Shown here one piece after another: positions 3,698 to 18,818 of a DNA stretch of 64,000 nucleotides (within the stretch, counting starts at the first letter, position 1; each line of letters begins with the position of its first letter). Under the pieces are notes generated by a model that was not told where the DNA came from, did not search any database, and was given only the letters and a program-made list of their open reading frames with translations. The translations under genes were made by a program, and so were the position numbers. Source of the stretch: Rhizophagus irregularis (Eukaryota; Glomeromycota; Glomeromycetes; Glomerales; Glomeraceae); assembly GCF_026210795.1 (NCBI RefSeq), contig NC_089434.1, forward strand, positions 4,030,001 through 4,094,000, given 5' to 3'.

Positions 3698-5512
3698 ATG
3701 TCTTTATCAAAACCTTTTCATTTTCCGGTGGGAAAAAATTCTTTCTTGGTCTCTATGAAAAATTTTCACGTGACAAAACCCAAAAGATCTGGTTATAACA
3801 AGATTTATGATAGCCACCGCTCAAAAAGTTTCTTTTTTGAGCTTGCTGATCCTAACAAAAACACCAATGAAATTCATCTGAAGATCCACACTAACGATTA
3901 TACAATGGATACTACCCCAATTAGGTTTCATTCCACAAGTATACTCCCTAATCACAAATACCAAATTAGTAAAATGCTCACACACTTTTTTTCTTTACAA
4001 GAAGTTCTGCCTCGTAGAATACAAACAAAATTTTTTGATTTTATTCGTTCAAAATTATTGGATAGAATTAATATAATACGATCACGTGGTTTTAGCACTA
4101 GCGATCGTAATAGATCTACAAAAACTTTTTTCAATTTTTCTTACAAAAAATATCGCTTTCATTTCGGTATTTATATTCCTTGTATACCTGATTGTACATC
4201 TGACTCTTTATCAGATAAACCTGCTTTTCTTACACAAACTCCAAAAACTCTTCATTTGTGTCAAATTCCATCCCCTTTCATTATGTCGCATCATCGACGT
4301 GCTTGCGTGATGCATCAGAAGAAATTTTTTAGCACAGAAGTGAATCATTTCTTGCGTCCTACTCAGAATTTAAGGAATGAAATGAATAACAACAAAAGTA
4401 CACATGCTTCGAATGTGTTCAACAAATGGCTTTCGCACACAAAAAAAGAAATCTATTCAAATCGGTTAGGAATTAAATATACCACCAGTTATTACGCTAA
4501 CGGTCATCAAAATATTTTTAAGAAAAACAACAAATATCGCTATATGTACAAAAAGCGTTATAATAATTTTAGTCACAATTATAGTATCAATAATTCAACG
4601 AAAAAGAAACAAGAGGCTCGCTTTAAGCGGAATTGTACTCGTATCTACAACAAGAATAACAAATTACGAATACTAAATGATCGACAAAAACTTAGGTCGG
4701 CTGTTCGCCACAGATTTCTCACTTCAATATCGCAATATATAGATAAACCGGTCACCCATCTTCGATATTCAAACAAGAGAAGAAGTATCAAAAAATCAGA
4801 TTATAATTTTAATGTTCCATTTTTTTCTTTTAAAAAGAAAGTACCCCCTATTAGGAGAACAAATCATGTTATCTATGATTTTACTTCTAGTTATAATTAT
4901 GTACCTCGATCTCAGAAATCTTCTAGCCTCTATATTGATGATGTAGCTTCAACGACTACTTTCTGTAAAGATATCATTTATCCTCTTCCTCCTGATATGG
5001 ATCCTGTTCCTGATAATATTGATATTCCAAACGAACTTCGCCCATATATACCTGATGGACCAATATATATGTTGGATCCTTCATCAAACAAAAAGAATAA
5101 GAAAAAAGTTAAACCCCCAACATACACTTATTGCATCCCTGGATCACGTTTGTGGTTTGATTACTTACGAAAGAACATTAAAAACGGTATTTTACCCTTT
5201 CGAGACTTTAGGGTTAACACCTCTAGTCCTATTTCCACCCACCCTATTTCAGATAGTTCGTCACTTAGTGATTCTATTTCACGCAACAACAATAATTTAC
5301 AACAACACAATGACCTTTTAAATTTACAACAACACATTATTGAAAACAATAAACGTCAATGGAACGTCATCAATACACAACTTGATAATGTTATCATTCA
5401 AGATTCTCAAAACACTTCTAATCAACATTCAGTTCACAAAAAACCTAAACGAACTTATTCCAGTTACCTTGCTGACTCCCTGGATGAAGGTTTTACCTCT
5501 GCTCGATATTAA
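3698..5512 (+). CDS. 604-aa basic protein of the LINE-like element (ORF1-like, unrecognised)
   Basis: A long intact ORF with a real ATG lies wholly inside the 18-bp-flanked element and upstream of the nested LTR element. The protein is basic and rich in Asn, Ser, Tyr, Lys and His through about residue 400. A Pro-rich acidic stretch follows near residues 430-460 (PLPPDMDPVPDNIDIPNELR), then a Lys cluster and the motif YCIPGSRLWFDYLR. The C-terminus is Asn/Gln-rich and possibly coiled (about 535-570). I see no CCHC knuckle, RT motif, endonuclease motif or RRM. By position it could be an ORF1p-like RNA-binding protein, but this is inference from context only. Its integrity suggests recent activity or selection. 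Confidence 0.6.
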   Translation: MSLSKPFHFPVGKNSFLVSMKNFHVTKPKRSGYNKIYDSHRSKSFFFELADPNKNTNEIHLKIHTNDYTMDTTPIRFHSTSILPNHKYQISKMLTHFFSLQEVLPRRIQTKFFDFIRSKLLDRINIIRSRGFSTSDRNRSTKTFFNFSYKKYRFHFGIYIPCIPDCTSDSLSDKPAFLTQTPKTLHLCQIPSPFIMSHHRRACVMHQKKFFSTEVNHFLRPTQNLRNEMNNNKSTHASNVFNKWLSHTKKEIYSNRLGIKYTTSYYANGHQNIFKKNNKYRYMYKKRYNNFSHNYSINNSTKKKQEARFKRNCTRIYNKNNKLRILNDRQKLRSAVRHRFLTSISQYIDKPVTHLRYSNKRRSIKKSDYNFNVPFFSFKKKVPPIRRTNHVIYDFTSSYNYVPRSQKSSSLYIDDVASTTTFCKDIIYPLPPDMDPVPDNIDIPNELRPYIPDGPIYMLDPSSNKKNKKKVKPPTYTYCIPGSRLWFDYLRKNIKNGILPFRDFRVNTSSPISTHPISDSSSLSDSISRNNNNLQQHNDLLNLQQHIIENNKRQWNVINTQLDNVIIQDSQNTSNQHSVHKKPKRTYSSYLADSLDEGFTSARY

Positions 5513-5825
5513 TTTTTGTAATGAGCCAGGATTATCTACAGAACAACTCAAAATTAGTGTGAACCATTCCACCTCTAACAGTATTTACAGGTGGTGGCTT
5601 TTTTAGCCAAAAGAAAAATACGGATCATGAGAACACAACCTTATTTACTAAATATCAATGCGAATCCTCAATGATCGTTCGCACGTAGTTGCTTTTAATA
5701 GTCTATACTACTCTAGAACTATTGATTTTCTATATATATAATTTTTTTTTTATTTTTAGGTTCTCTCGTTACGGATGGGTCTTTAGGTTTTATTTTTTTC
5801 TTTTCCCCATTCGAAGTATTAGCGT
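5513..5825 (+). other. 3' part of LINE-like element before the LTR insertion
   Basis: No gene is recognised. Short open frames here (such as the overlapping 5340-5606 and 5689-6069) have no motif and the second crosses the LTR boundary. The sequence continues after the LTR element at 18643 (agttctagtagtttgaatag) down to the AAT-rich tail. Confidence 0.5.
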
Positions 5826-6512
5826 TGTCACCCACGTCTGCCACCCGTGGATAAACACATCTTTCTCATTTAACTTATTTCTCGTTACTTTGCTTGGTTT
5901 AGATTTTATTTTTCTTTTAACTTCTCGCTTTCTTTTCTCATATATCCGTAGTATTTATTCTCAATACTACTGCTCATTCATAATATTCCCAAAATATTAT
6001 GCTGCCTGTAATATTTATTCTTTCAAATATTACCATCTTATTTCTTATAAACTGCGAGAGTTCTCCTAACTTCTTATATTTCATACAATAAAACGAGAAT
6101 AACTCCTCTTACTTTACTTTTCTGGACTTAATAATAATATTAATTAATTCTCAAGCGTACAATGAGCATATTCAAGATAACTTTTAATAATTAATATTTA
6201 TTTTATTAAATTTGAGTCAAAACTGACTGCGGAATTCCTAACGAATCCCACCTATATTTATACATTTTTAAGAAAACTATTTCTACCACTTCTAACTTTT
6301 CTACTAATAAAAATTTAAGAACAATAAGAAAATAAAGATATATTATCATATGACTATCTTGTGACTAAACTAAACTAAACTATAAATATTATTTTATCGG
6401 TTAATTATTTATCCTTCGGCTAATTATTTATCCATCGGTTAATTATTTATCCTTGTTCTATTCGGTCTTTTATTCATCTGCTCACGTGATTATCCTGATT
6501 TCTCGGGTTACA
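5826..6512 (-). repeat. 3' LTR (element orientation) of Ty3-type element
   Basis: 687 bp, TGTCACCC..GGGTTACA in plus orientation, matching the copy at 17953-18638 over its whole length. It carries four TAATTATTTATCC-type short repeats near 6400-6450, and an A/T-rich AATAAA-containing stretch at 6090-6100. Confidence 0.95.
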
Positions 6513-6527
6513 GCTATCCCCCCAAGA
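6513..6527 (-). other. Polypurine tract
   Basis: On the minus strand, CTTGGGGGGATAGC abuts the 3' LTR start. A G-run directly inside the 3' LTR is the usual plus-strand primer site. It is interrupted by one T. Confidence 0.6.
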
Positions 6528-6542
6528 AAAATTTGAGTCCCA

Positions 6543-7730
6543 TCAAATTCTAATTATAACTTCGAAACTTGACCTGTCTATATATTCCTTCAATAATTCT
6601 CCATTTACTGGCGTTTTCTGTATTCTTCCCTCCATAGTTTTAATTTTATAAGATCCTTTAGAAATTATTTCGTGTATATAATACGGTCCTTTCCATTTTT
6701 CTTCTAGTTTTCCAGACCATTGTTTTTCTTTTGCTGCATCATAATATAGTACTTTATCCCCTATTTGAAAGTTCTTTTTCGTCTTATATTTCTTATCATG
6801 ATATTTCTTCTGTTTTTCTTGAGATTTTTCTATATTCTCTCTGGCTCGGCTTCTAATGTTCGGTAGATCTTCCATTAAACTATTAATCCTTTGTGTTATT
6901 GTAACATTTTCATCTTCCATATTTAGTAATGTCCTCATTTCCCTTCCATATATTAGATATCCTGGTTTTAACTTGGTCGAATCATTCTTCTTTGTTCTAT
7001 ATGCAAATAAGACTCCTGGTATTCTTAAATCCCAATCTTTAATGTTACTCAATTTTGCTAATGATTCACATAGTGTCTTATTGAACCTTTCTATTAATCC
7101 ATTCGTCTTCGGGTGATAAGGTGTCGAAAAATTGTGTTTTATCTGAAATTCCCTCATTAATAATTCTACTAATTTGTTATTAAAATGACTTCCCCTATCA
7201 CTTAATATCTTCTTTGGACATCCGTGTCTACATATTATATCTTCATAAATGAATCTTGCAATTTCTTTAGCATCTGCTGTTTCTAAGGCTCTAGCTTCTG
7301 GCCATTTCGTAAAATAATCCATTGCCGTAACTATGTATCTATTATTTCTTTCTGTTATTGGTAACGGTCCCACAACATCTATTCCAATCTGATAAAATGG
7401 TTCTTTAACTTTTATTACATTTAATTCGTGTTTTCCAATCGGTTTTCCTCTTCTTTGACAACTATTGCATGATTTAACATATATTTCTATATCTTGTCTC
7501 ATTCCATTCCAGTAATATTTCTCTCTAATCCTTTCATATGTTGCATCTATTCCAAAATGTCCAGATAATTCATGGTCGTGTGCAATATACATTAATCCTT
7601 CAAACTCATATTTTCTTATTACTCTCAATTCTCTATTATCCTTTATTCTATATAACAAACCATCTTTCATCCTATAGTGTTGTTTATTATCTATATTTTT
7701 AATTATCTCATTATATTTATCTTCTTCCAT
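6543..7730 (-). CDS. Integrase ORF of the Ty3-type element (395 aa)
   Basis: This protein inserts the element cDNA into the genome. In order: an N-terminal HHCC zinc module (HDHELSGHFG with His51 and His58; CNSCQ with Cys88 and Cys91); the DDE core with Asp118 (IGIDVVGP), Asp178 (ILSDRG) and Glu214 (GLIERFNKT), giving D-x35-E; and a C-terminal GPY/F-like module (KWKGPYYI..GSYKIK) near residues 345-375. No chromodomain is seen. It ends 30 bases before the LTR, just inside the polypurine tract. It is in the same reading frame as the RT ORF but is separated from it by a stop and about 140 bases, so a separate initiation, splice or recoding step is needed. Confidence 0.92.
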   Translation of the reverse strand: MEEDKYNEIIKNIDNKQHYRMKDGLLYRIKDNRELRVIRKYEFEGLMYIAHDHELSGHFGIDATYERIREKYYWNGMRQDIEIYVKSCNSCQRRGKPIGKHELNVIKVKEPFYQIGIDVVGPLPITERNNRYIVTAMDYFTKWPEARALETADAKEIARFIYEDIICRHGCPKKILSDRGSHFNNKLVELLMREFQIKHNFSTPYHPKTNGLIERFNKTLCESLAKLSNIKDWDLRIPGVLFAYRTKKNDSTKLKPGYLIYGREMRTLLNMEDENVTITQRINSLMEDLPNIRSRARENIEKSQEKQKKYHDKKYKTKKNFQIGDKVLYYDAAKEKQWSGKLEEKWKGPYYIHEIISKGSYKIKTMEGRIQKTPVNGELLKEYIDRSSFEVIIRI

Positions 7731-7869
7731 TAATTAGTATATCTTCTATTTCTTCTTCAAAAGGTAAAATAAACCTAATATTTTTATCTTCAAATAACAC
7801 GCAGTGATAATTCGTATTCCTGTGTATGATGTAAATATATATTCCTATTCCAATATTTTCAGTAGTCAT
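7717..7869 (-). CDS. 50-codon linker ORF between kinase and integrase ORFs
   Basis: It begins two bases after the RT-kinase stop (TAA-AA-ATG), in a different frame, and overlaps the integrase ATG by 14 bases. It encodes 50 residues with an Ile/Tyr-rich start and the segment CVLFEDKNIRFILPFEEEIE. No family is recognised. It could be a coupling ORF for termination-reinitiation, a remnant of an N-terminal integrase segment after a frameshift, or chance. Confidence 0.35.
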   Translation of the reverse strand: MTTENIGIGIYIYIIHRNTNYHCVLFEDKNIRFILPFEEEIEDILINGRR

Positions 7870-7871
7870 TT

Positions 7872-10193
7872 TTATTTTTCCAATAGCTTTTCTACTCGTT
7901 TATATACTTTTTTCCAACTTTTGTCATCGTTTTTAATTTTAATTCTCCTATATTTTCCTTTATTCTCATAAATATTCTGATGCTCTTTAAACATTTTCAC
8001 CATGTCCATGTATTCCTCTTCGTTCAACGTTTCATATGATGTTTTATGTCCTTCATTACTTTTCTTAGTTTCTCTTCCAATATAATTATTCCAACATTCT
8101 TTATTCTCTAAGAAAATTATTATCGCATTATCTATAATATCTTTATATTTAAATATCTCTTTCTCCATTTTATGATTCCCATATGGAGTAATATATCCTC
8201 TGTCAAAACTTTTGGTCTTTTGATAAAAGTATTCACAATATGGTGACTTATCCAGTATTATAATGTCTTCATCTGTAAATTCAACTATTCTCCTATTGAT
8301 TTCTTCTACAACTTGTTTTCTAAATAACCATTCATATTCTTTTGAAGGTTCCTCAAATCTCTTATCATCATTTCTTCTTCTTTTAAACTTATTAAATATT
8401 ATTTTTAAATCATCCTTTTCTTTTAATCGTTTAATTATATTTTCTACTATGGTGGATTTCCCTACACCATCAACCCCATCAACAATAATAATCTGTGGTT
8501 TACTCTTCCTTCCTAATTTCTTTAATAATTCTTTTTCTGTCTTTTCTTCTAAGTTCAGTAATATTGCTTCTTTATCATTAAAATATTTCATATCATCCCA
8601 TTTTCCCTTAAATCTTCTAGCGTCGAACCATTCATTTCCTGATCTAACATATCTCAGCTTTTTCTCTTTATTATTTTCCATTTTCATTATTTCTTGACTT
8701 AAGTCTCCAGGGTCCCTTTTTATAACTTTCTCTTCAAATTCTAGTCTTGATAACGCATCTGCATTCTTATTTTCTTTACCGCTTCTATGTATTACTTCAA
8801 AGTCATATTGTTGTAACTCCATTACCCATCTTGCTCTTCTTCCTGTAGGTACTTTAGCATTCATTAATCCTTTTAACGCAGCATGATCCGTTATAACCGT
8901 AAATTTTCTTCCTGCTAAGAACTTATGGAAATACTTGATCCCCCAGAATATTGCTAAACATTCTAATTCTGTTATTGCATAATTCTTTTCTGCTCCCACT
9001 AAACTTCTACTAGCATAGGCGATAACAAATTCTTTATTTTCTTCATTTTTCTGAGATAATACTGCTCCTAACCCTTCTCCTGACGCGTCTGTAATCAATA
9101 TAAACTCCTTTTCGAAATTAGGGTGATCTAATACTGGTTTTTCCATTAATCTTATTTTTAATTCTTCAAATGCTTCCTGCTGTTTCTCTGTCCATTCAAA
9201 TGGTACATCCTTTTTAACTAAGTGATATAAAGGTTTTGCTATTTTCGCAAAATTCTTTATAAATCTTCTATAATATGAGCACAATCCTAAAAATGATCTC
9301 ACTTGTGTAACAGTTTCTGGTATCTTTATTTCTTTAATCTTCTCCACTTTCTTTGCATCTGGTTTCAAACTATCTCTTCCAACTATATGTCCTAAAAATT
9401 CTATATTTCGTTCACCGAACTTACATTTCTTCAATTTCACAATCAAGTTGTTTTTCTTTAATTCGTTCAACACTTTATCGATATGTTCCACATGTTCTTC
9501 AAAATTTTTTGAATAAATCATTATATCATCTAGATATACTATTACAAATTCTCCAATATATTCTTTTAATATCTCATCCATTATCCTCTGAAATGTTCCT
9601 GGTGCATTCTTTAAACCAAATGGCATAACATTATATTCATATAATCCTTGTGAACATATAAATGCTGTCTTTTCTTTATCTTCTTCTACCATTTCTACTT
9701 GATGATACCCTGCCGCTAGATCCAAACTCGTAAACCATCTCGCTGTTCTATATTTTTCTAATAATTCGTCTATTCTTGGTAATGGGTATGCATCCGACTT
9801 AGTTATATTATTCAATTTCCTATAATCAATGCAAAATCTATAATTTCCTGTTTTCTTTCCTGCTAGTGTTACTGGAGACGCCCATGGACTCCATGACTTT
9901 CTAATTTTCCCCATTTTTAATAACTGTTCAACTTCTTTCTTTATAAACTTTCCCTTTTCCTCGGTCTCTTTATACCTCTTCTGTGCTATTGGTTCTTGAC
10001 CTTCTTTAATTTCTATTTTATGTCTAACAGTGTCTACCCTTCCTAATTTTTCTCCATCGTATTCAAATATCTCTTCATAACTTTTGATTAGCTTTATTAT
10101 ACCATCCTTTCTTTTACCTGTTACTTCTCCCAAATTTATCTTTTTATCGAACTTTTCCCATTTAGTTTCATTTTTATCATTTTCATTTATCAT
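7872..10193 (-). CDS. Reverse transcriptase-RNase H with C-terminal P-loop nucleotide-kinase domain (773 aa)
   Basis: Residues about 60-280 are the reverse transcriptase: SLDLAAGYHQ with catalytic Asp158, MPFGLKNAPGTFQ, and the YLDD box at 220-223. RNase H follows (about 335-485) with Asp369 (ITDASGEGLG), Glu409, Asp436 (ITDHAAL) and Asp479 (NADALSR). After a roughly 75-residue charged linker, residues 566-773 form a separate domain. It has IIIVDGVDGVGKST (Walker A 573-581), a strand ending ILDKSPYCEYFYQ (648-657, the place of the DR-x-x-S/Y motif of thymidylate/deoxynucleoside kinases), a second core strand IIIFLENKE, and a charged lid-like region with RETKKSNEGHKTSYETL. Its length of about 208 aa equals that of a thymidylate kinase. 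The fusion is in frame with no intervening stop. RT and RNase H are certain; P-loop kinase is strongly supported; dTMP specificity is inference. Confidence 0.9.
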   Translation of the reverse strand: MINENDKNETKWEKFDKKINLGEVTGKRKDGIIKLIKSYEEIFEYDGEKLGRVDTVRHKIEIKEGQEPIAQKRYKETEEKGKFIKKEVEQLLKMGKIRKSWSPWASPVTLAGKKTGNYRFCIDYRKLNNITKSDAYPLPRIDELLEKYRTARWFTSLDLAAGYHQVEMVEEDKEKTAFICSQGLYEYNVMPFGLKNAPGTFQRIMDEILKEYIGEFVIVYLDDIMIYSKNFEEHVEHIDKVLNELKKNNLIVKLKKCKFGERNIEFLGHIVGRDSLKPDAKKVEKIKEIKIPETVTQVRSFLGLCSYYRRFIKNFAKIAKPLYHLVKKDVPFEWTEKQQEAFEELKIRLMEKPVLDHPNFEKEFILITDASGEGLGAVLSQKNEENKEFVIAYASRSLVGAEKNYAITELECLAIFWGIKYFHKFLAGRKFTVITDHAALKGLMNAKVPTGRRARWVMELQQYDFEVIHRSGKENKNADALSRLEFEEKVIKRDPGDLSQEIMKMENNKEKKLRYVRSGNEWFDARRFKGKWDDMKYFNDKEAILLNLEEKTEKELLKKLGRKSKPQIIIVDGVDGVGKSTIVENIIKRLKEKDDLKIIFNKFKRRRNDDKRFEEPSKEYEWLFRKQVVEEINRRIVEFTDEDIIILDKSPYCEYFYQKTKSFDRGYITPYGNHKMEKEIFKYKDIIDNAIIIFLENKECWNNYIGRETKKSNEGHKTSYETLNEEEYMDMVKMFKEHQNIYENKGKYRRIKIKNDDKSWKKVYKRVEKLLEK

Positions 10194-10277
10194 TTTAAAA
10201 TTTATTTATTATTTTATTTCTTATTATTATTTCAACAATTTTACATTTTGGGACAATTTTAGCCCTTTTTATATAAT

Positions 10278-10901
10278 TCAATCCTCATTTTCACTAGATA
10301 TTTCACTATCATCAGACGAGCTTTCTTCACTGGAACTTTCACTATCTTCTTGAGACTCATTTTCTTTTACTACTTCCTTTTCTTTTATTGCTTCTTTTAC
10401 TGTATATAACTTCTTTCCTTCTTCTTGTTCATAATCAGATTCTCCTGATTCACTTTCATAGTCGGATTCTTCTGACTCTTCCACTTGTTTAATATACCAC
10501 ACTGGTATGTCTATTATTTCTTCATCATTTTCTAATTCCAATATCTTTTCTTTATAGTTGATATTTGCATTCCATTTATCCAATAAATCATTTCCTATAA
10601 TCATTTCTTTTTGCTTTGAATCTATTACATCTAATGTTACTGGTAATACTAATTCTTTATAAACTTTTATTTCTGTATTCACTTTTCCTAATGAAGCAAT
10701 CTTTCCTCCATCTGCTAATGTACACGTAATATTACTTTTTCCTTTTATTGGTATATTTAACTCTTTTCTTAATTTCTCTGTTATTACACTTATTGCTGCC
10801 CCTGAATCTATTACAACTTCGATTTCCTTATCATTTATTATAAACTGTGTTTTCATTGCCGTTGTAACTTCTTTTTCTCCACTTATTTCAGTCTTTTTCA
10901 C
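10278..10901 (-). CDS. Retropepsin-like aspartic protease domain, read in frame after Gag
   Basis: This domain processes the Gag/Pol proteins. The active-site loop is VVIDSGAAISVI (DSGA), followed by a pepsin-like flap region (LADGGKIASLGKV) and the second-half hydrophobic motif MIIGNDLLDKW. The C-terminal tail is very acidic and Ser-rich. The coordinate start is a GTG, not an ATG. The frame is continuous with Gag, separated only by the UGA at 10914-10916, so expression is most likely as a Gag-protease readthrough product. The first in-frame ATG lies about 15 codons in, just before the domain. Two in-frame stops then separate it from the RT ORF, 84 bases further on. Confidence 0.88.
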   Translation of the reverse strand: MKKTEISGEKEVTTAMKTQFIINDKEIEVVIDSGAAISVITEKLRKELNIPIKGKSNITCTLADGGKIASLGKVNTEIKVYKELVLPVTLDVIDSKQKEMIIGNDLLDKWNANINYKEKILELENDEEIIDIPVWYIKQVEESEESDYESESGESDYEQEEGKKLYTVKEAIKEKEVVKENESQEDSESSSEESSSDDSEISSENED

Positions 10902-10910
10902 CTCCGAGTG

Positions 10911-10916
10911 TAGTCA
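10911..10916 (-). other. UGA-CUA stop-codon readthrough context at the Gag/protease junction
   Basis: The Gag ORF ends GAG-TGA-CTA-CAC and the following codons continue in the same frame into the protease. UGA followed by CUA is the best-known leaky stop context, used by several RNA viruses and by cellular and fungal readthrough genes. The motif is direct sequence; its use here is inferred. Confidence 0.6.
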
Positions 10917-13900
10917 CTCTGTTTTATCTCCTTTTCTTATCATTTTCTTTATCATTCTTCCTTGTTGTTCCACAATATTAAGTAGATTTCCATAATCTAC
11001 TGGATCTTTTGATTTAACTCCTATAATTTTATCTTCTCTTGGTCTACGTTTTCCCCCTGCTTCTTTCCATCTATTTATTCCTTCCATTGTGTCATAATAT
11101 TCTCCTCTCTTTTTACTCCATTTATATCTTTTTGGGATATTCGTATTGTCTGGTCCTATTGGTCTATTATACATTGGTTGCTCATCCTCCACATATTCTT
11201 CCATCGGAACTTCTCTTCTATTTCTATATTTATGTTCTTCTTTCCCTCTTTCCTCAATCTCTTTGTCTAAATTTGGCTTTCCAAAATTTTTCCATCCTTG
11301 TTTAGGATTTATTCTATTACTTCTCCTTCTTTCTTGTACTGGGTTATCTTTTTCATACAAATCACGATTGTAGTTATACAATTGTGGATCATCATATTCA
11401 TTATTTTCATAGTCGTAATCATCATCTGATTCTTCATTTTCGTAGTCATAATCTTCTTCATGGTCTTCTATATCCATTAAATTAACTCTTCTCTCATTTC
11501 TTCTGATATTATTTCCTAATGGACATCTAGTCGCAAAATGACCTCTTCTATTACACCTAAAACAAGTTATTTCATCATAATTAATTGGTGCTCCATTATT
11601 TCTTCTCTGATTCAATTGGTTTCTATTCCCATTATTATTCAACTCCCTTTCCATATTTCGTACTTGTTTTTCCAATTTGGCAATTCTCATTTTCTCTAAT
11701 TTTTCCACTAAATCGTCCTCATAATCTTCCTTTAACGGTTTGTTAAACTTATTTTCTTGTTCATTTCTTTTATCACTGTTTTGTCTAATATCTTGAATAT
11801 TATTATTCTGAATATTATTCTGATTTAACAAACTTTGATTCATCATACTTTGTATCATCATTTGATTTCCTGTCTCTATAATTTTAGCTCTTTCAACAGC
11901 TGCATCCAACGTCGCTGGTGCTGTTTCCATTACTCTTGATATCATAACTGGATTCAGTCCCTGAATAAAATAGTTAATTTTATACATTTCTCCTAAATCA
12001 TTAACTCCTGGTGCTATTTTTCTTATTAACTTTCTGAATCTGCTTGCATATGCTCCTACTTTCTCATTCATTTCTTGTTTAATCGTTTGTAACTCTCTAA
12101 TCCATTGATTCTTTCTAACATCGCTTGCATAATGTTCCTTCAGTATTTTAGTAAAATCATTATTCCCATGGTTATGACCATTGTCCTCCCATCTTTGTAT
12201 ATCTCCTTGTTTGTTTTCATACCAATCAGCTGCTTCTCCTCGCATACATGCTGCTGCTTTTCTTATTTTATCTATTTGATTAGCTCCTTCTTGATAACCA
12301 TTTGCGCTCCAAACAACCTCAAAATCTCTAATCCACTCATATGGATCTTGATCTCCTCCATAATATAATGGTAAATCTCCTACTTTCGCTGCTCTATTCA
12401 CTGGTCCTGTCAAATTTCCAACTCTTGTTTCAACTTGATTAATTCTTCCAAATATTGTATCTGCTGGTGGAACTAAAGCATTCCAATCATTTCCTATATC
12501 ATGTCCTAATATTATATTTCCAAACGTTCTCAAATCTTCTCTGATGTGATTTCTTTCTGCCATATTCAATAATATATTCTCTTGAAATAAATCCTGTAAA
12601 TTATAATCAGATAGTTCACTTTCTGTATCAGAATTTTCAATATCAGAATCCTTAATATTTAACGAATTATTCGAATCTGAATTTTGACTTAAGCCAAAAT
12701 CTTCCGTATTTATAATATTTTCCTCATTGTTTTCAATTCTATTTTCATCAAAGTCTTCAGAATTTTCTTCCCAAATCTCATATTCTTCTGGATCTAATAT
12801 CTCTCCAATCTTTTCCGAATCATCTGAATTATCATTTTCTTCTTCACTTTCTTCAATCTCGAATTTCCTTAAGTACTCATCCAATATTCTCTTTATTTCC
12901 CTTTCTGATTCATTTTTATATTCTTGAAATTTTCTTATAAAGTCTGCACTTAATATATCAACATCTCTATATCCCATACTTATTAATCTTAATAATTCTC
13001 CATCAGAAACTTCAATTTTTAAAACTTTAATTAAGTTCCTTAGCTGTTCTAATCTTTTCTCTATTTCCGTTTCATCATCCGATTTATTCTCGTCTTCTAA
13101 ATTTTCTGGTCCTTTTTCATAACAACTTTTACATATCTTTTCTATAAATTCTTTATTGTATTCTACCGCTTCTATTGCTTCTTTCTTTAATATTATTTTA
13201 TTGCACATTGGGCATTCTATCGTATACATATAATGCCATATTCTTAACTCTTCTTCTATTCTTTCGTCATCTAATTCTTCAATAGTTTTATAAAAACTCA
13301 TAAATTCTTTAGTCTTCATTATTTCATATTCCACTCTGAAATTTATTATTCGCCTTATCTCTTCAGTATCAATTTCATAACCATTTTCTAACCAATAATT
13401 TCTGTATATTCTTTCTATATGTTCATCTCCTTCATTCGAACTTGATTCTCCTAAATCATCTGAATTTTCCAGTTCTCCTACATCACTTTGTTCTTCAACA
13501 AAACCTTTTGCTTCTACAATTTTCTTTATTATCTTATCTGTTATGTCGTCATCTATCCATGGTTTCGGGTATTTATTTCCATCCCACCATTGATATGTTA
13601 TACTTTTCTGAAACTTTCTGACTTTCTCTCTATTCTCTTCTTCTACTATATTTTCTTCTAAATGCAATATTTCCTTGAAATATCTCATTGTGCTATATCC
13701 TTTGTTTTTAATGGTTATTGGTTCTGTTTTTTCTAACCATTCCTCAAATTTTGCAAATCTCATATCTAATTCATCATCTTCTATAATATATCTATATGTT
13801 AACAATTCCCTATTTCCTAATAAATTCTCTTCTGTTTGTTCATCTAATATAAGTTCATTATCTTCATTCAGTATGTAATGTTCACATATTACTTTTATTA

Positions 13901-14297
13901 CTGATATAATTCCTATTTTTCTGTAGTCCGGTTTATTTCTATACCTTATTGATCTTACGACTACATCCAACAGTTTTTCTCCTTCTTTTCTCATTCTCTC
14001 AAATTCTTTATTTCTTTTCTTTTTACTAGATGGATAATTTTCTTCCCCATCCTTTCTTGTTAGTATTATGTATTCCATTAATTTCATATACGTATTTCTG
14101 TTATAACTCATTGCTTCTAATATTACTTTTTGAAAAATTTTCCAAAATCTTTTAAACCAATCTTCTATCTTTATTTCATCAATACCATAACATTTCAGGC
14201 ATGAAGGATCTACTTGATATTCCTTCCTCGATTCATTATGTTTTTCTATTTCATGTTTATTTTTGATCTCTTCTAATTCATCGTATATTTCAGACAT
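10914..14297 (-). CDS. Gag polyprotein with long N-terminal extension (1127 aa)
   Basis: Residues about 640-815 form a retrotransposon Gag (capsid) domain: LPLYYGGDQDPYEWIRDF, then AACMRGEAADWYENK, and a region with VGAYASRFRKLIRKIAPG and FIQGLNPVM. A CCHC zinc knuckle follows (CFRCNRRGHFATRC, Cys912, Cys915, His920, Cys925), then an Asp/Glu/Tyr-rich stretch and a basic tail. The first 578 residues are unusual for Gag: mainly acidic and helical, with a possible zinc site (CPMC..CKSC, near residues 365-398). An internal Met579 (MAERNHIRED) marks where a normal-sized Gag would begin. The extension may be a fused accessory protein. The start is the first ATG, 12 bases downstream of an in-frame open leader, so it is reasonable but not proven. 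Confidence 0.88.
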   Translation of the reverse strand: MSEIYDELEEIKNKHEIEKHNESRKEYQVDPSCLKCYGIDEIKIEDWFKRFWKIFQKVILEAMSYNRNTYMKLMEYIILTRKDGEENYPSSKKKRNKEFERMRKEGEKLLDVVVRSIRYRNKPDYRKIGIISVIKVICEHYILNEDNELILDEQTEENLLGNRELLTYRYIIEDDELDMRFAKFEEWLEKTEPITIKNKGYSTMRYFKEILHLEENIVEEENREKVRKFQKSITYQWWDGNKYPKPWIDDDITDKIIKKIVEAKGFVEEQSDVGELENSDDLGESSSNEGDEHIERIYRNYWLENGYEIDTEEIRRIINFRVEYEIMKTKEFMSFYKTIEELDDERIEEELRIWHYMYTIECPMCNKIILKKEAIEAVEYNKEFIEKICKSCYEKGPENLEDENKSDDETEIEKRLEQLRNLIKVLKIEVSDGELLRLISMGYRDVDILSADFIRKFQEYKNESEREIKRILDEYLRKFEIEESEEENDNSDDSEKIGEILDPEEYEIWEENSEDFDENRIENNEENIINTEDFGLSQNSDSNNSLNIKDSDIENSDTESELSDYNLQDLFQENILLNMAERNHIREDLRTFGNIILGHDIGNDWNALVPPADTIFGRINQVETRVGNLTGPVNRAAKVGDLPLYYGGDQDPYEWIRDFEVVWSANGYQEGANQIDKIRKAAACMRGEAADWYENKQGDIQRWEDNGHNHGNNDFTKILKEHYASDVRKNQWIRELQTIKQEMNEKVGAYASRFRKLIRKIAPGVNDLGEMYKINYFIQGLNPVMISRVMETAPATLDAAVERAKIIETGNQMMIQSMMNQSLLNQNNIQNNNIQDIRQNSDKRNEQENKFNKPLKEDYEDDLVEKLEKMRIAKLEKQVRNMERELNNNGNRNQLNQRRNNGAPINYDEITCFRCNRRGHFATRCPLGNNIRRNERRVNLMDIEDHEEDYDYENEESDDDYDYENNEYDDPQLYNYNRDLYEKDNPVQERRRSNRINPKQGWKNFGKPNLDKEIEERGKEEHKYRNRREVPMEEYVEDEQPMYNRPIGPDNTNIPKRYKWSKKRGEYYDTMEGINRWKEAGGKRRPREDKIIGVKSKDPVDYGNLLNIVEQQGRMIKKMIRKGDKTE

Positions 14298-14713
14298 CTT
14301 GATTTATTTTATTTACCTATTTACTTGCAAAATGATTTCATTTCATATTTCCCGTCTATTTATATTTTTATTCATATAGTATTTATTCGTTTATCATTTC
14401 AATCTTTATTTCTTTTATATTTTCATGTTTACAACTTTCTACTACATTTCTTTATTATATTTTATATTACATGGTATTCTATTACTTATAACTTGATATT
14501 CTTCTAACTTCATTAATTCTTAATTAGTTTAACGTCTTTCCGGACAACTATTTGTCCCTAAATTCTTATTATTTACATTTTTCCTGTATTTCCATCTTAA
14601 CCGCTTGATTTCTTCACGCTTATTATTCTTCTTATGATATTCTTTTATTCCACCTGTTATCTTCTAACGTCTTTTTGTATATTTATTTCATCCTTTAATA
14701 TTCATCTTATTCT

Positions 14714-15058
14714 TCAATTCCTATATTCTGTCTGTTCATAAATTTTCTGATTATTCCTGTATGCAGCTATTTTACATTCTCCCATTCGCAATATATTCCT
14801 ATTTTTGTGTTCACATCTTTCTTCATGTTCATTAAGATATTCCATTCTTTTTCGAAAGTATTCTTTACATAACATTTCTATTTTGTTTCTTAAACTTTCT
14901 TCGCTTTCTTCCCTGACTTCAAAATAATTAATTTCTTGTAACGTTACATTCTCTATTTTCTCGCAATATTTACATTTTACTTTACCGTCTATTCTAATAA
15001 AACCTTTTCCATTTATATTTTCAAATACCGTTGTTTCCATTTCTCGTATTTTATTCAA
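14714..15058 (-). CDS. Small accessory ORF of the Ty3-type element (about 108-114 aa)
   Basis: Unrecognised. The open frame begins at a non-ATG codon; its first ATG is codon 7 (MetGluThrThr). It has a CKYC pair at about residues 29-32 and later single Cys residues in charged helical sequence (MLCKEYF, EERCEHKN), which may bind a metal ion. It lies between the mini-Gag ORF and the main Gag ORF on the same strand. Expression from the leader would require splicing or reinitiation. Confidence 0.45.
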   Translation of the reverse strand: MNKIREMETTVFENINGKGFIRIDGKVKCKYCEKIENVTLQEINYFEVREESEESLRNKIEMLCKEYFRKRMEYLNEHEERCEHKNRNILRMGECKIAAYRNNQKIYEQTEYRN

Positions 15059-15127
15059 AATTTCTCATTTATTATTATTTTATTTTGTCATTATTCATTT
15101 CCTCCTACTTTTATAATAATTGATTAC

Positions 15128-15388
15128 TCAGTTTCTATCATCACTCGAATATTTATCAATTATTCTAAATTTTAAATTCAACCATTTAATCTCATTTTTA
15201 TCCCAATCTGCAATACACATTCCTTCATTTTCAAACCATTGTAGCGCATTTCCTAACAAATGTGTCTTTGCAATCTTAAATATTCTTTTATCATCCTTAA
15301 TTCCTATTTTCGACAAATATTTCTCAACTTGATTCGTCCATTCTTTCGGATTTTCTCCTTTTATACCATAAAATATTGGTATTTCCAT
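15128..15388 (-). CDS. Mini-Gag-like ORF (86 aa) upstream of Gag
   Basis: It has a true ATG. The sequence resembles the start of a retrotransposon Gag capsid domain: IPIFYGIKGENPKEWTNQVE, then KTHLLGNALQWFENEG and WLNLKFRIIDKYS. The main Gag shows equivalent positions (LYYGGDQDPYEWIRDF, AACMRGEAADWYENK). It stops after the first half of a capsid domain and has no zinc knuckle. Possibilities are a truncated ancestral Gag, an N-terminal capsid module, or a dominant-negative assembly inhibitor. The resemblance is seen; the role is speculative. Confidence 0.5.
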   Translation of the reverse strand: MEIPIFYGIKGENPKEWTNQVEKYLSKIGIKDDKRIFKIAKTHLLGNALQWFENEGMCIADWDKNEIKWLNLKFRIIDKYSSDDRN

Positions 15389-15519
15389 TTTAATCTCTCG
15401 TATTACTCCTTAAAATATATATACTTCATATTCTTTTCACGGTACAAATTTTGCCCTTTTTATAACTTTATTTTAAACATTTCAAGGTTCTCAGACTTTA
15501 ATCTCTATATTTTGACCTT

Positions 15520-16425
15520 TCATTCCTCTATTTCTTGTCCTCTTATAAGATCTTCCGCTATTTCTGTTATTTCTTTCTTAGTACAACTATCTACTGATGT
15601 AATATCACAATTACTTTCGAATACTCTTTTCTTTCCTATCTTATTAACTAATAAACAAACTTTTTCTGCTTTTTCCATCATTCTTTTTAATCCTTTTCTT
15701 GTTCTTACTACATCTGTTTCCAACATTTCCTTATATATCTTTTCTCGTTCCTCTTTATCTGTTCTCCTTTTTCTATTTTTCCCTTTTCGCTTATTAATTT
15801 CTTGTTCTAATCTTTCTTCAAACCTTTTTCCTAAATAATAATGTATTTCCAATAACATCTGATTATTCCTTCTCATTTTATGACATAATTGTAATAACGA
15901 TAGTCCTCCATTCTCCTTTTCTAACATTTCTTCGTCAATATCTTCCTTCTTATGTTTTAATCTAATCATTAAAACTTGGTAATTTTCTGATCTAACTATT
16001 TCTTCATTTTCTTCACTATCATCAGTTCCATTTTTCTCACTACTATTATCTTCTTCCTTTTCTCTAACCTTATCATTCTTGTCATCTATTTCCATTAATT
16101 CTGATCTTTCTTCATCAGCTATTCCATCATTATTTATTTCATCTATTACTATATTATCATTATCATTCTCATCATTTTCTATATTAAATTCTGACTCATC
16201 ATTAACATTCCTATTTCCTGAACTATTATCACTTTCTTCTATCATATCTTCATCAAGTTCAATTTTTTCTTCGTTAAATATTCTTTCAGTAACTATCTCG
16301 CATGTGACAATCCAATTCTTTAGTCTCATGTCATTTTCATCATAAAATTCCACTTCAATACAATCATTTAGTTTTTCTTCAACTTTTCTCAATTCTCCTT
16401 TCGATATTTTAATTTTTAATTTCAT
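15520..16425 (-). CDS. Acidic accessory ORF of the Ty3-type element (301 aa), unrecognised
   Basis: It has a true ATG and is the first long ORF after the 5' leader. Residues 1-60 look like a compact alpha/beta segment (MKLKIKISKGELRKVEEKL..IEVEFYDENDM). Residues about 60-155 are an Asp/Glu/Asn/Ser acidic low-complexity region. The C-terminal half is basic and helical (KRKGKNRKRRTDKEEREK), with scattered Cys. No enzyme motif is visible. It might be a chaperone-like or nucleic-acid-binding accessory protein, but I do not assign a function. Confidence 0.5.
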   Translation of the reverse strand: MKLKIKISKGELRKVEEKLNDCIEVEFYDENDMRLKNWIVTCEIVTERIFNEEKIELDEDMIEESDNSSGNRNVNDESEFNIENDENDNDNIVIDEINNDGIADEERSELMEIDDKNDKVREKEEDNSSEKNGTDDSEENEEIVRSENYQVLMIRLKHKKEDIDEEMLEKENGGLSLLQLCHKMRRNNQMLLEIHYYLGKRFEERLEQEINKRKGKNRKRRTDKEEREKIYKEMLETDVVRTRKGLKRMMEKAEKVCLLVNKIGKKRVFESNCDITSVDSCTKKEITEIAEDLIRGQEIEE

Positions 16426-17060
16426 GATTTATTATTTCTTATTTATTTATTATTTTATTAGTCAGTCGTCCCTGCCCAGGGGCAACTATATATATACTCT
16501 TAATTTGATATTTTCCTATTATTCTATTGGTTATTCATTCTTATTGTTCCATCAACCGTTCTCAGTATTTCATTAAATTCTTTATTTCTTTTATAATTCT
16601 TTATTTCTCAACTTCAATCTCCTTTTCTCTAATTATTTCTTTCGCTCTTTAATTCCTTTCTACTTTCTTTCTTAACTTTTCTCTTACTGTGCCTTGTACT
16701 ACTCACATGATCTGTATTACTCACGTGACTTGCCGCAGTATAATCTCATTTTATTCACTCACATTTGTAATTGAACTGAAGATCATAAGCCCAATTGTTC
16801 AAACACTTACCATTATACCAACAACATATAGTTGTTACATTTAAACCTTGGATTCATATTTAATTTTTATAACTCCGTTCTTACAACATCAAATATTCAA
16901 CAATACTATTTCTTTTTATTTCATACTTGATACAATTCTTTTATTATACTTCTCATAATCATTAACATCATTCTTTCTTTTATTATAGTTGGATAGCCAC
17001 AGATTTTTAAGCGATCAACTTACTAAAATTTCTGTTGACAAACGCCCCTGGTGACACAAC

Positions 17061-17105
<45 letters not shown>

Positions 17106-17931
17106 TCTCTTACTTGACCAGCAAGTTTCTTCAAAAATAAATTAATATGAGGGTTTAACACCGCTTTACCCACAACGTACAATAATAATAATGGGGGTTT
17201 CTTACAGTTTAACCCGCAACTTACAATCTAGAGGGTTTATTACAGCTTAACCCACAACTTACAATCTTATAGTGTTTTAAAGGTTCCCACATAACCACTA
17301 GTGTTTTTCTTGTAAGGTTCCCACGCAACCTCTTGGGTTTATAGTTCACCCGCAACTTTTGCATTATTTCTTTTATTAGATTTACTTTCTTACCGTGAAA
17401 TCTCAATACGGTCTTATTTTCTTTTATAGTCAATTATCGTGACTAACTTAACTCCAATAATTCTTATAGAATTATCTCCTTTTATTTCCAATAACCTATA
17501 CTAGGCTTATCTCTACCTTCATATCGAAGTATGATAGTTTCTAGGTTTGTCATTAACAACTTTTTATTTCTTATTTATCAGGCTTATACATCGTCTAGTG
17601 TATTTCTTTCATTTCATGTTAGTCCTTTTTCATACTAACATACACTTCTTGTTAGTCCTTTTTCATACTAACATATACTTCTTTCAACTTCTTATAATAA
17701 ACTTCATAATTTCCTGATAAATCTCCTAATCACAAGCAATACACGCTTTGATTATCCTTCATTACTTGTACTTCTTTTATTTCTCATTGTACACTTAATA
17801 ATTTTTTTTTTTTTTTTTTTTTTATACTCAAGTCCAGATCCTCTAGGAATACCACACAGGTACCTAACTATATGAAGATAGTCAGAATGATCATATTTCA
17901 TTTCTTTTAATCTTTATTGATCATTTCCTTT
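16426..17931 (-). other. Long 5' leader of the Ty3-type element with poly-T runs and short repeats
   Basis: About 1.5 kb without a convincing gene. It contains an uninterrupted 41-base T run (17063-17103; poly-A in the element RNA) and a 22-base T run (17802-17823). Degenerate repeats of the GGGTTTATTACAGCTTAACC type occur at about 17150-17360. Two copies of a 32-bp unit (gttagtcctttttcatacta) lie at 17618-17685, each able to form a small GTTAG/CTAAC stem. Confidence 0.6.
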
Positions 17932-17949
17932 CTCGGAAGCATTGCACCA
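17932..17949 (-). other. Candidate primer-binding site
   Basis: On the minus strand, three bases after the 5' LTR, the sequence is TGGTGCAATGCTTCCGAG. It begins with TGG, as expected for complementarity to a tRNA 3'-CCA end. I cannot name the tRNA. Confidence 0.5.
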
Positions 17950-17952
17950 AAT

Positions 17953-18638
17953 TGTCACCCACGTCTGCCACCCGTGGATAAACACATCTTTCTCATTTAA
18001 CTTATTTCTCGTTACTTTGCTTGGTTTAGATTTTATTTTTCTTTTAACTTCTCGCTTTCTTTCTCATATATCCGTAGTATTTATTCTCAATACTACTGCT
18101 CATTCATAATATTCCCAAAATATTATGCTGCCTGTAATATTTATTCTTTCAAATATTACCATCTTATTTCTTATAAACTGCGAGAGTTCTCCTAACTTCT
18201 TATATTTCATACAATAAAACGAGAATAACTCCTCTTACTTTACTTTTCTGGACTTAATAATAATATTAATTAATTCTCAAGCGTACAATGAGCATATTCA
18301 AGATAACTTTTAATAATTAATATTTATTTTATTAAATTTGAGTCAAAACTGACTGCGGAATTCCTAACGAATCCCACCTATATTTATACATTTTTAAGAA
18401 AACTATTTCTACCACTTCTAACTTTTCTACTAATAAAAATTTAAGAACAATAAGAAAATAAAGATATATTATCATATGACTATCTTGTGACTAAACTAAA
18501 CTAAACTATAAATATTATTTTATCGGTTAATTATTTATCCTTCGGCTAATTATTTATCCATCGGTTAATTATTTATCCTTGTTCTATTCGGTCTTTTATT
18601 CATCTGCTCACGTGATTATCCTGATTTCTCGGGTTACA
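17953..18638 (-). repeat. 5' LTR (element orientation) of Ty3-type element
   Basis: 686 bp and near-identical to the 5826-6512 copy; the visible difference is one T in the cgctttctttctcat stretch. The promoter of the element should lie here, transcribing leftwards. Confidence 0.95.
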
Positions 18639-18818
18639 GCGTAGTTCTAGTAGTTTGAATAGTATTGTTCGAAGGGTGGGGTCCCGTAGGGGATTAATTT
18701 CCAAAATTCTATACTAGCCTATTTGTACCATCATGTAAATGATGTTTTACTCTTATTTTGTAATAGTTTTGGGAGTACTACTCTTTTAGTAATAAAATAA
18801 AATAAATAAAATAAATAA

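Follow-up and report, generated by a model that had tools for sequence, protein, structure and literature searches.

The window, which is the whole 64,000-nucleotide stretch of Rhizophagus irregularis DNA analysed here, contains a Ty3 LTR retrotransposon whose Pol includes, judged by its sequence, a divergent thymidylate-kinase-like domain. This domain is under purifying selection as strong as that acting on the reverse transcriptase (RT). The explanation we favor is that in a Ty3 group of the Glomeraceae a thymidylate-kinase-like enzyme forms part of Pol, where it sits after RNase H and before integrase, and that this module would act as a deoxynucleoside monophosphate (dNMP) kinase aiding reverse transcription. 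Taken with the full mechanism described below, this reading seems to us somewhat better than an even chance.

Structure of the element and its Pol frames

The element covers 12.8 kb (5826-18638, minus strand), as delimited by its LTRs, target-site duplication, and ORF content. Alignment of the LTR pair placed the 3′ LTR at 5826..6512 and the 5′ LTR at 17953..18638 (both minus strand); they have TG..CA ends and differ by no mismatch and a single 1-base gap in 690 aligned columns. A 4-bp target-site duplication, GCGT, flanks both element ends (5822..5825 and 18639-18642), and the element is young. The order of gag, protease, RT, RNase H, and integrase, the LTRs, and the short target duplication are those of a Ty3 (gypsy) element. 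All genes of the element named in the following are located on the minus strand. The gag ORF (10914..14297), in which Pfam identified a Ty3 capsid and a zinc knuckle, shares its frame with the aspartic protease (10278..10913) immediately 3′ of the gag stop. The ORF list and Pfam place a 773-aa ORF, which is open throughout, at 7872..10193. Integrase is encoded separately at 6543..7730, in an ORF that has its own Met, an H2C2 zinc finger, and the core. In the 773-aa ORF, Pfam detected RVT_1 and RT_RNaseH and, C-terminal of both, Thymidylate_kin. According to the profiles, the kinase-like domain comprises residues about 562-773 (7875..8510); the preceding linker to RNase H (8511..8723) was recognized by its dN/dS and by outgroup matches reaching into it. 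An uninterrupted in-frame domain within an element with near-identical LTRs, as described in the original prediction, was thus found. A putative tRNA primer-binding site (TGGTGCAATGCTTCCGAG, about 17930-17951, minus strand) adjoins the 5′ LTR, and two more ORFs (14714-15058 and 15520-16425, minus strand) lie between gag and the 5′ LTR. A 604-aa ORF (3698-5512, plus strand) is located beside the element.

At least 150 kinase matches were found in the same genome (146.7 Mb, 32 contigs; 151 reported, 150 listed), which makes a chance occurrence of the domain untenable and removes the concern that other copies might lack it. The aligned stretch is free of in-frame stops in 133 of the 150 matches listed and contains at least one in the other 17; among all the rows, at least five pairs represent parts of a single copy each, and some rows are fragments. 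Identity separates the matches into four main groups, A (77-100%), B (about 67%), C (about 60%), and D (about 58%), plus fragments. In A-C, the kinase forms the end of the RT-RNase H ORF, with frames of about 777, 779, and 706 codons in the A, B, and C elements read, whereas in D the RT-RNase H frame has 493 codons and the kinase opens a frame of its own that continues into integrase; of the four D elements compared, three have 600 codons in this frame and one has 615. The fusion to RT that had been claimed for the domain consequently applies to lineages A-C and does not extend to D, where the kinase shares its ORF with integrase. In all ten elements compared, the kinase is positioned between RNase H and integrase. 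Protein searches yielded 37, 106, and 125 homologues in overlapping sets, the last among 8000 scored candidates; the named sources are R. irregularis, R. clarus, R. diaphanus, and Glomus cerebriforme, of which R. irregularis and G. cerebriforme belong to the Glomeraceae.

The signals between the Pol frames were compared in ten elements (that of the window, L031-L038, and L045) among 16, which comprised the window's element and 15 stretches of 10 kb. Gag and protease occupy one frame across a single TGA, and TGA-CTA-CA is present in 10 of the 10 elements, which represent four lineages. UGA-CUA is a readthrough context, and TGA-CTACA is a candidate for a conserved readthrough signal; in the window, the gag stop TGA followed by CTA is located at 10911..10916 (minus strand). 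Between protease and RT, the frame changes in nine of the ten elements; the window element crosses several stops in one frame. In the nine elements of lineages B-D (L031-L038 and L045), the protease frame overlaps that of RT by 1-7 bases, and TCTTGG follows just downstream. The integrase begins near its own Met in the six A-C elements. If the ORFs are made separately, the D kinase would not be attached to RT.

Relationship of the domain to thymidylate kinases

The profile phrog_761 ("thymidylate kinase") matched the window domain over residues 8-221 of 224 (E 3.4e-12) as well as all 14 homologues of set A1 (best 2.2e-15) and 17 of 17 of set A2, although the match is shorter in some members and PHROGs have no curated cut-off. 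E. coli Tmk matches the same phrog_761 stretch with an E of 7.3e-38. Thymidylate_kin (PF02223) matches 14/14 of A1 at E ≤ 0.01, and its cut-off of 27 bits is passed by homologue P0059 (32.5 bits, 1-180/185) and, over the first half only, by P0009 (30.2 bits) and P0043 (28.9 bits); the window copy itself stays below it (22.2-22.6 bits). The dTMP kinase model TIGR00041 likewise matches all 14 A1 members at E ≤ 0.01 (best 5.3e-7), and the window copy reaches 20.7 against a cut-off of 83.25. TIGR00041 is outscored by the unnamed NCBIfam family PRK08233 (14/14 of A1, best 4.2e-9), and the NCBIfam models FtsY and guanylate kinase match 13/14 and 12/14 of A1, respectively; the window copy remains under every NCBIfam cut-off among the matches listed. 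Scanned alone, the window domain passes the cut-offs of NB-ARC (24.4, cut-off 23.5) and CobW (21.4, cut-off 20.7), in both cases over a short stretch around the P-loop (42 and 49 residues, respectively), and both drop below their cut-offs when the whole ORF is scanned. The AAA_28 cut-off is passed over nearly full length in homologues P0060 and P0155. Among solved structures searched by sequence, most matches were to the P-loop of FtsY/SRP, and yeast thymidylate kinase was found with an E of 0.02-0.03. Defence-system models matched only P-loop-containing parts, or the NUDIX part of P0128. Some metagenomic homologues had already been labelled "thymidylate kinase" by the source pipelines. The assignment to a thymidylate-kinase-like family made in the original prediction is partly supported: phrog_761 and the homologues that match PF02223 favor it, the window copy lies below the PF02223 cut-off, and the short NB-ARC and CobW passes leave a less likely assignment to another P-loop family. 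The NB-ARC/CobW, PRK08233, FtsY, guanylate kinase, and AAA_28 matches were all counted against the preferred explanation.

The alignment with nine thymidylate kinases (hhalign; 95.6% for A2 and 96.1% for A1) begins at the P-loop, ends at the YQ of DR..AYQ, and leaves the C-terminal half uncovered. The Walker A motif and the DK segment in the place of the DR motif, both read earlier from the sequence, are present as described, the former (GVDGVGKST; GVDGVGKS at 8454..8477, minus strand) in what we take to be the thymidylate kinase form of the P-loop. Among the 42 fetched loci covering this motif (GxDGxGK(S/T)), the Lys and the Ser or Thr are kept in 42 and the last Gly in 41. DKSPYCEYFYQ (8220..8252, minus strand) was aligned with DR..S..AYQ in both hhalign runs, and its D, K, S, Y, and Q are each conserved in 44 of 44 fetched loci; these are mostly best-scoring loci and amount to 42 different copies, because L031 and L032 contain the same ones as L024 and L025, and the decayed L043 was left out. 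The Arg of the DR motif, invariant in nine of nine thymidylate kinases, is Lys in all 44 loci, preceded by Asp in each, and the PGG motif, equally invariant in the nine, is absent, with FN.FKRRR instead in most members. Arg625 (domain R76; 8319..8321, minus strand), which is Arg in 42 of 43 loci and a stop in one, may correspond to Arg78 of E. coli Tmk, its invariant base-site Arg; Arg78 pairs with R76 in one hhalign run and with R86 in the other. An Arg-Glu pair kept in 44/44 loci (8070..8075, minus strand) may belong to the lid region.

The element kinase thus resembles the thymidylate kinase family (PF02223, E. coli Tmk, and the phage enzymes of phrog_761) in its P-loop form, in the Asp and the Y-Q of DR..AYQ, in domain length, and in the phrog_761 match over nearly the whole window domain. 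It differs in DK for DR, in the missing PGG, and in its location within a retrotransposon Pol. The replacement of the Arg by Lys, the absence of PGG, and the window scores below PF02223 and TIGR00041 weaken the thymidylate kinase reading.

Of the other enzymatic readings, a dNK-like deoxynucleoside salvage kinase, which would produce dNMPs from nucleosides and not dNDPs from dNMPs, is the strongest, albeit unlikely. DKSPYSE resembles the dNK motif ERS-x-YS-D/E, and the outgroup proteins P0146, P0148, and P0152 match dNK (PF01712) nearly over full length with 25.1-25.2 bits. These values lie just below the cut-off of 27, and the matches listed are all to outgroup proteins, with at most 25.2 bits; PF01712 is absent among the 13 families found for the window copy (E ≤ 0.01) and, for A1, among the 25 families listed out of 35, whereas PF02223 matches all 14 A1 members. 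The P-loop is also of the thymidylate kinase form. A little less probable again is a polynucleotide kinase-like activity on nucleic-acid ends (cDNA or tRNA primer), or a use of ATP for steering RT or integrase. Such a role would suit a kinase that shares its ORF with RT in A-C and, in D, with integrase; several ATPase models also give matches by way of the P-loop, and phrog_505 (polynucleotide kinase) matches the outgroup proteins P0128 (2.6e-4) and P0134 (0.0047). Against it, phrog_505 is absent among the 16 families of the 14 A1 Ty3 copies (E ≤ 0.01), and the kinase position shifts between RT and integrase, which indicates that the kinase has no fixed partner.

Exchange between lineages and origin of the kinase

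The RT and kinase trees conflict over lineage B; the kinase tree has long outgroup branches and was used only for this conflict. Lineage B (L022) and L015 share 99.0% nucleotide identity in RT-RNase H and 89.0% in integrase, but 72.3% in the kinase. The opposite was found for L022 and L033, with 72.9% in RT-RNase H, 66.1% in integrase, and 85.8% in the kinase. In 100-base windows, L022 and L015 are 97-100% identical from 101 to about 1600, just before Walker A, 59-82% through the kinase, and 84-97% from 2701 on (integrase); L022 and L033 are 84-91% identical over the kinase only. With 99% identity in RT and 72% in the kinase, the kinase alone therefore appears to have been exchanged between the element lineages, as a cassette. 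The identity of the donor lineage is inferred; in this comparison, A3 is represented by the single copy L015, whose RT contains one stop, and B by many near-identical copies.

In the related lineage E (L057 and L056), whose RT is 67% identical to that of the window element, RNase H leads directly to integrase and the kinase is missing. Another 12 loci are like E in identity and frame length and have no kinase within 20 kb among the matches listed; this rests on a comparison of two match listings, in which the alignment of each of the thirteen kinase-free candidate rows contains at least one stop. The RT tree is compatible with a basal position of E or with a loss of the kinase in E. Both this kinase-free relative and the disagreement between the hhalign runs on the base-site Arg were counted against the preferred explanation.

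The nearest outgroup found consists of metagenomic NUDIX-kinase proteins, 345-391 aa long, in which an N-terminal NUDIX domain precedes a kinase sharing 34-41% identity with that of the elements; the fusion is present in P0124, P0128, P0134, P0146, P0147, P0149-P0151, P0156, and P0157. The NUDIX domain shows a weak similarity (E 0.0023) to the nucleotide diphosphatase NUDT15. Besides this identity, these proteins share with the element kinase the DK(S/T)PY.E motif and a similar linker, but they possess the NUDIX domain and lack RT and integrase. In most A and B rows, the matches of P0124 and P0149 start within the linker, 20-26 residues ahead of the kinase; in most C and D rows they start at the kinase itself (earlier in a few D rows). 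The last 20-26 residues of the window element's linker resemble the NUDIX-kinase linker. The element kinase may descend from a kinase of this type, with or without NUDIX. No confirmed relative of phage, virus, or prokaryote origin was found in IMG/VR, GTDB genomes, or a phage collection, each searched with few patterns or single queries, so that a distant source is possible. The host thymidylate kinase was considered as a source and found no support: its exons (G000:C13:3242213-3242981; FEGCDKAGKST and VDRYAYSGVSY) encode a canonical enzyme, of a different type by motif comparison. A second host thymidylate-kinase-like gene (L046, G000:C24:3288271-3288729) has a degenerate P-loop, EGCEDTNTT, and is possibly a non-catalytic paralogue.

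Selection on the kinase and its proposed role

Selection was analyzed by Nei-Gojobori dN/dS in 15 family A loci (L001 and L003-L016; L002 was excluded because its kinase is identical to that of L001), using pairs with dS of 0.1-1.2, which are not independent and of which those with dS above about 1 are near saturation. The median dN/dS was 0.092 for the kinase (70 of 105 pairs, range 0.044-0.160), 0.077 for RT-RNase H (97/105, 0.030-0.261), and 0.135 for integrase (101/105, 0.070-0.266). For linker residues 491-532, it was 0.48 (83 pairs of at least 25 codons, with a dS limit of 1.5). Single pairs outside this set gave 0.12 (B-C), 0.12 (A2-A3), and 0.13 (within D) for the kinase; the A-C pair gave 0.23, and the A-D pair was saturated. 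Given that the kinase has a dN/dS like that of RT and integrase and the linker beside it one of 0.48, the kinase is not carried along neutrally. Neutral decay, which had been named as an outcome that would speak against the domain, is contradicted by the kinase median of 0.09, and the functional maintenance assumed in the original prediction is upheld by purifying selection in many copies and by homologues in several species.

An improbable alternative is that the kinase counters a dNTP-lowering host defence or provides a metabolic signal, instead of a simple supply; cassette exchange between lineages would fit such a changing pressure, but the substitution pattern is one of constraint. A functionless passenger kept by hitch-hiking can practically be dismissed, since the existence of lineage E without the kinase and the stops in 17 of the 150 matches listed are opposed by the low dN/dS in A (0.09) and elsewhere (0.12-0.13) relative to the linker and by D, K, S, Y, Q, R, and E positions kept in 44/44 loci.

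In the preferred explanation, the domain would be an active dNMP kinase, with dTMP as the first guess for its substrate. It would enter the particle with Pol, joined to RT in A-C and to integrase in D, and produce dNDPs, which the host NDP kinase would turn into dNTPs. The cDNA would be made where or when the host dNTP supply is low, as in non-S-phase coenocytic hyphae and spores. The supply of dTTP to an AT-rich element, suggested in the original prediction, is a conjectural purpose. Counted against the preferred explanation is that dTMP kinase is usually not limiting for dNTP supply. Retroelements are generally taken to live on host dNTPs, with the exception of dUTPases, whose effect is limited to cleaning the pool. 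If Pol contains a conserved nucleotide kinase that can be swapped, a retrotransposon would be able to produce some of its substrate itself. The exchange also shows that one enzyme of Pol can pass as a cassette from one retrotransposon lineage to another; kinase-bearing Ty3 elements would offer a simple test of whether dNTP supply limits retrotransposition in coenocytic fungi. We propose only tentatively, at slightly less than even odds, that this is the first known retroelement nucleotide kinase, that the cassette came from a NUDIX-kinase lineage outside the host, and that dNDPs made in or near the particle free reverse transcription from S phase.

A nucleotide kinase in an LTR retrotransposon was not found in the open-licence PMC literature, and an earlier report elsewhere is possible. 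In fungal Ty3 elements, dUTPases are described at the N-terminus or C-terminus of Pol or between protease and RT (PMC2864245), and bdelloid rotifer retrotransposons also contain dUTPase (PMC5408684). These elements resemble the kinase-bearing ones in having captured an enzyme of nucleotide metabolism in Pol at varying positions; the enzyme is another one, and in the ten elements compared here the kinase follows RNase H and precedes integrase. The dUTPase in fungal Ty3 Pol (PMC2864245) and the NUDIX fusion of the outgroup were counted in favor of the preferred explanation. Other retrotransposons have captured cytosine methyltransferases (PMC5890265), likewise a cellular-type enzyme in the coding region, but theirs are host-derived and serve DNA methylation, whereas the host thymidylate kinase is no evident source here. 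A study of transposable elements in R. irregularis lists Gypsy among the recently expanded and expressed elements, and its main text nowhere mentions "thymidylate" (PMC8647823).

Several kinase copies were observed in other contexts. At L044 (2757-5609), part of gag is fused to the kinase in a single frame of 951 codons that lacks protease and RT; it is probably a kinase-retaining internal deletion derivative. P0051, P0053, P0062, and L048 form a group of about 252-267 aa with the kinase starting at its own Met in a protein without RT, and L048 (1279-2065) is itself a decayed copy behind a coiled-coil-like ORF. The kinase of L041 (3918-6744) is divided into two parts; the stretch between them, which has a 560-codon frame in the opposite orientation, is probably a later insertion.
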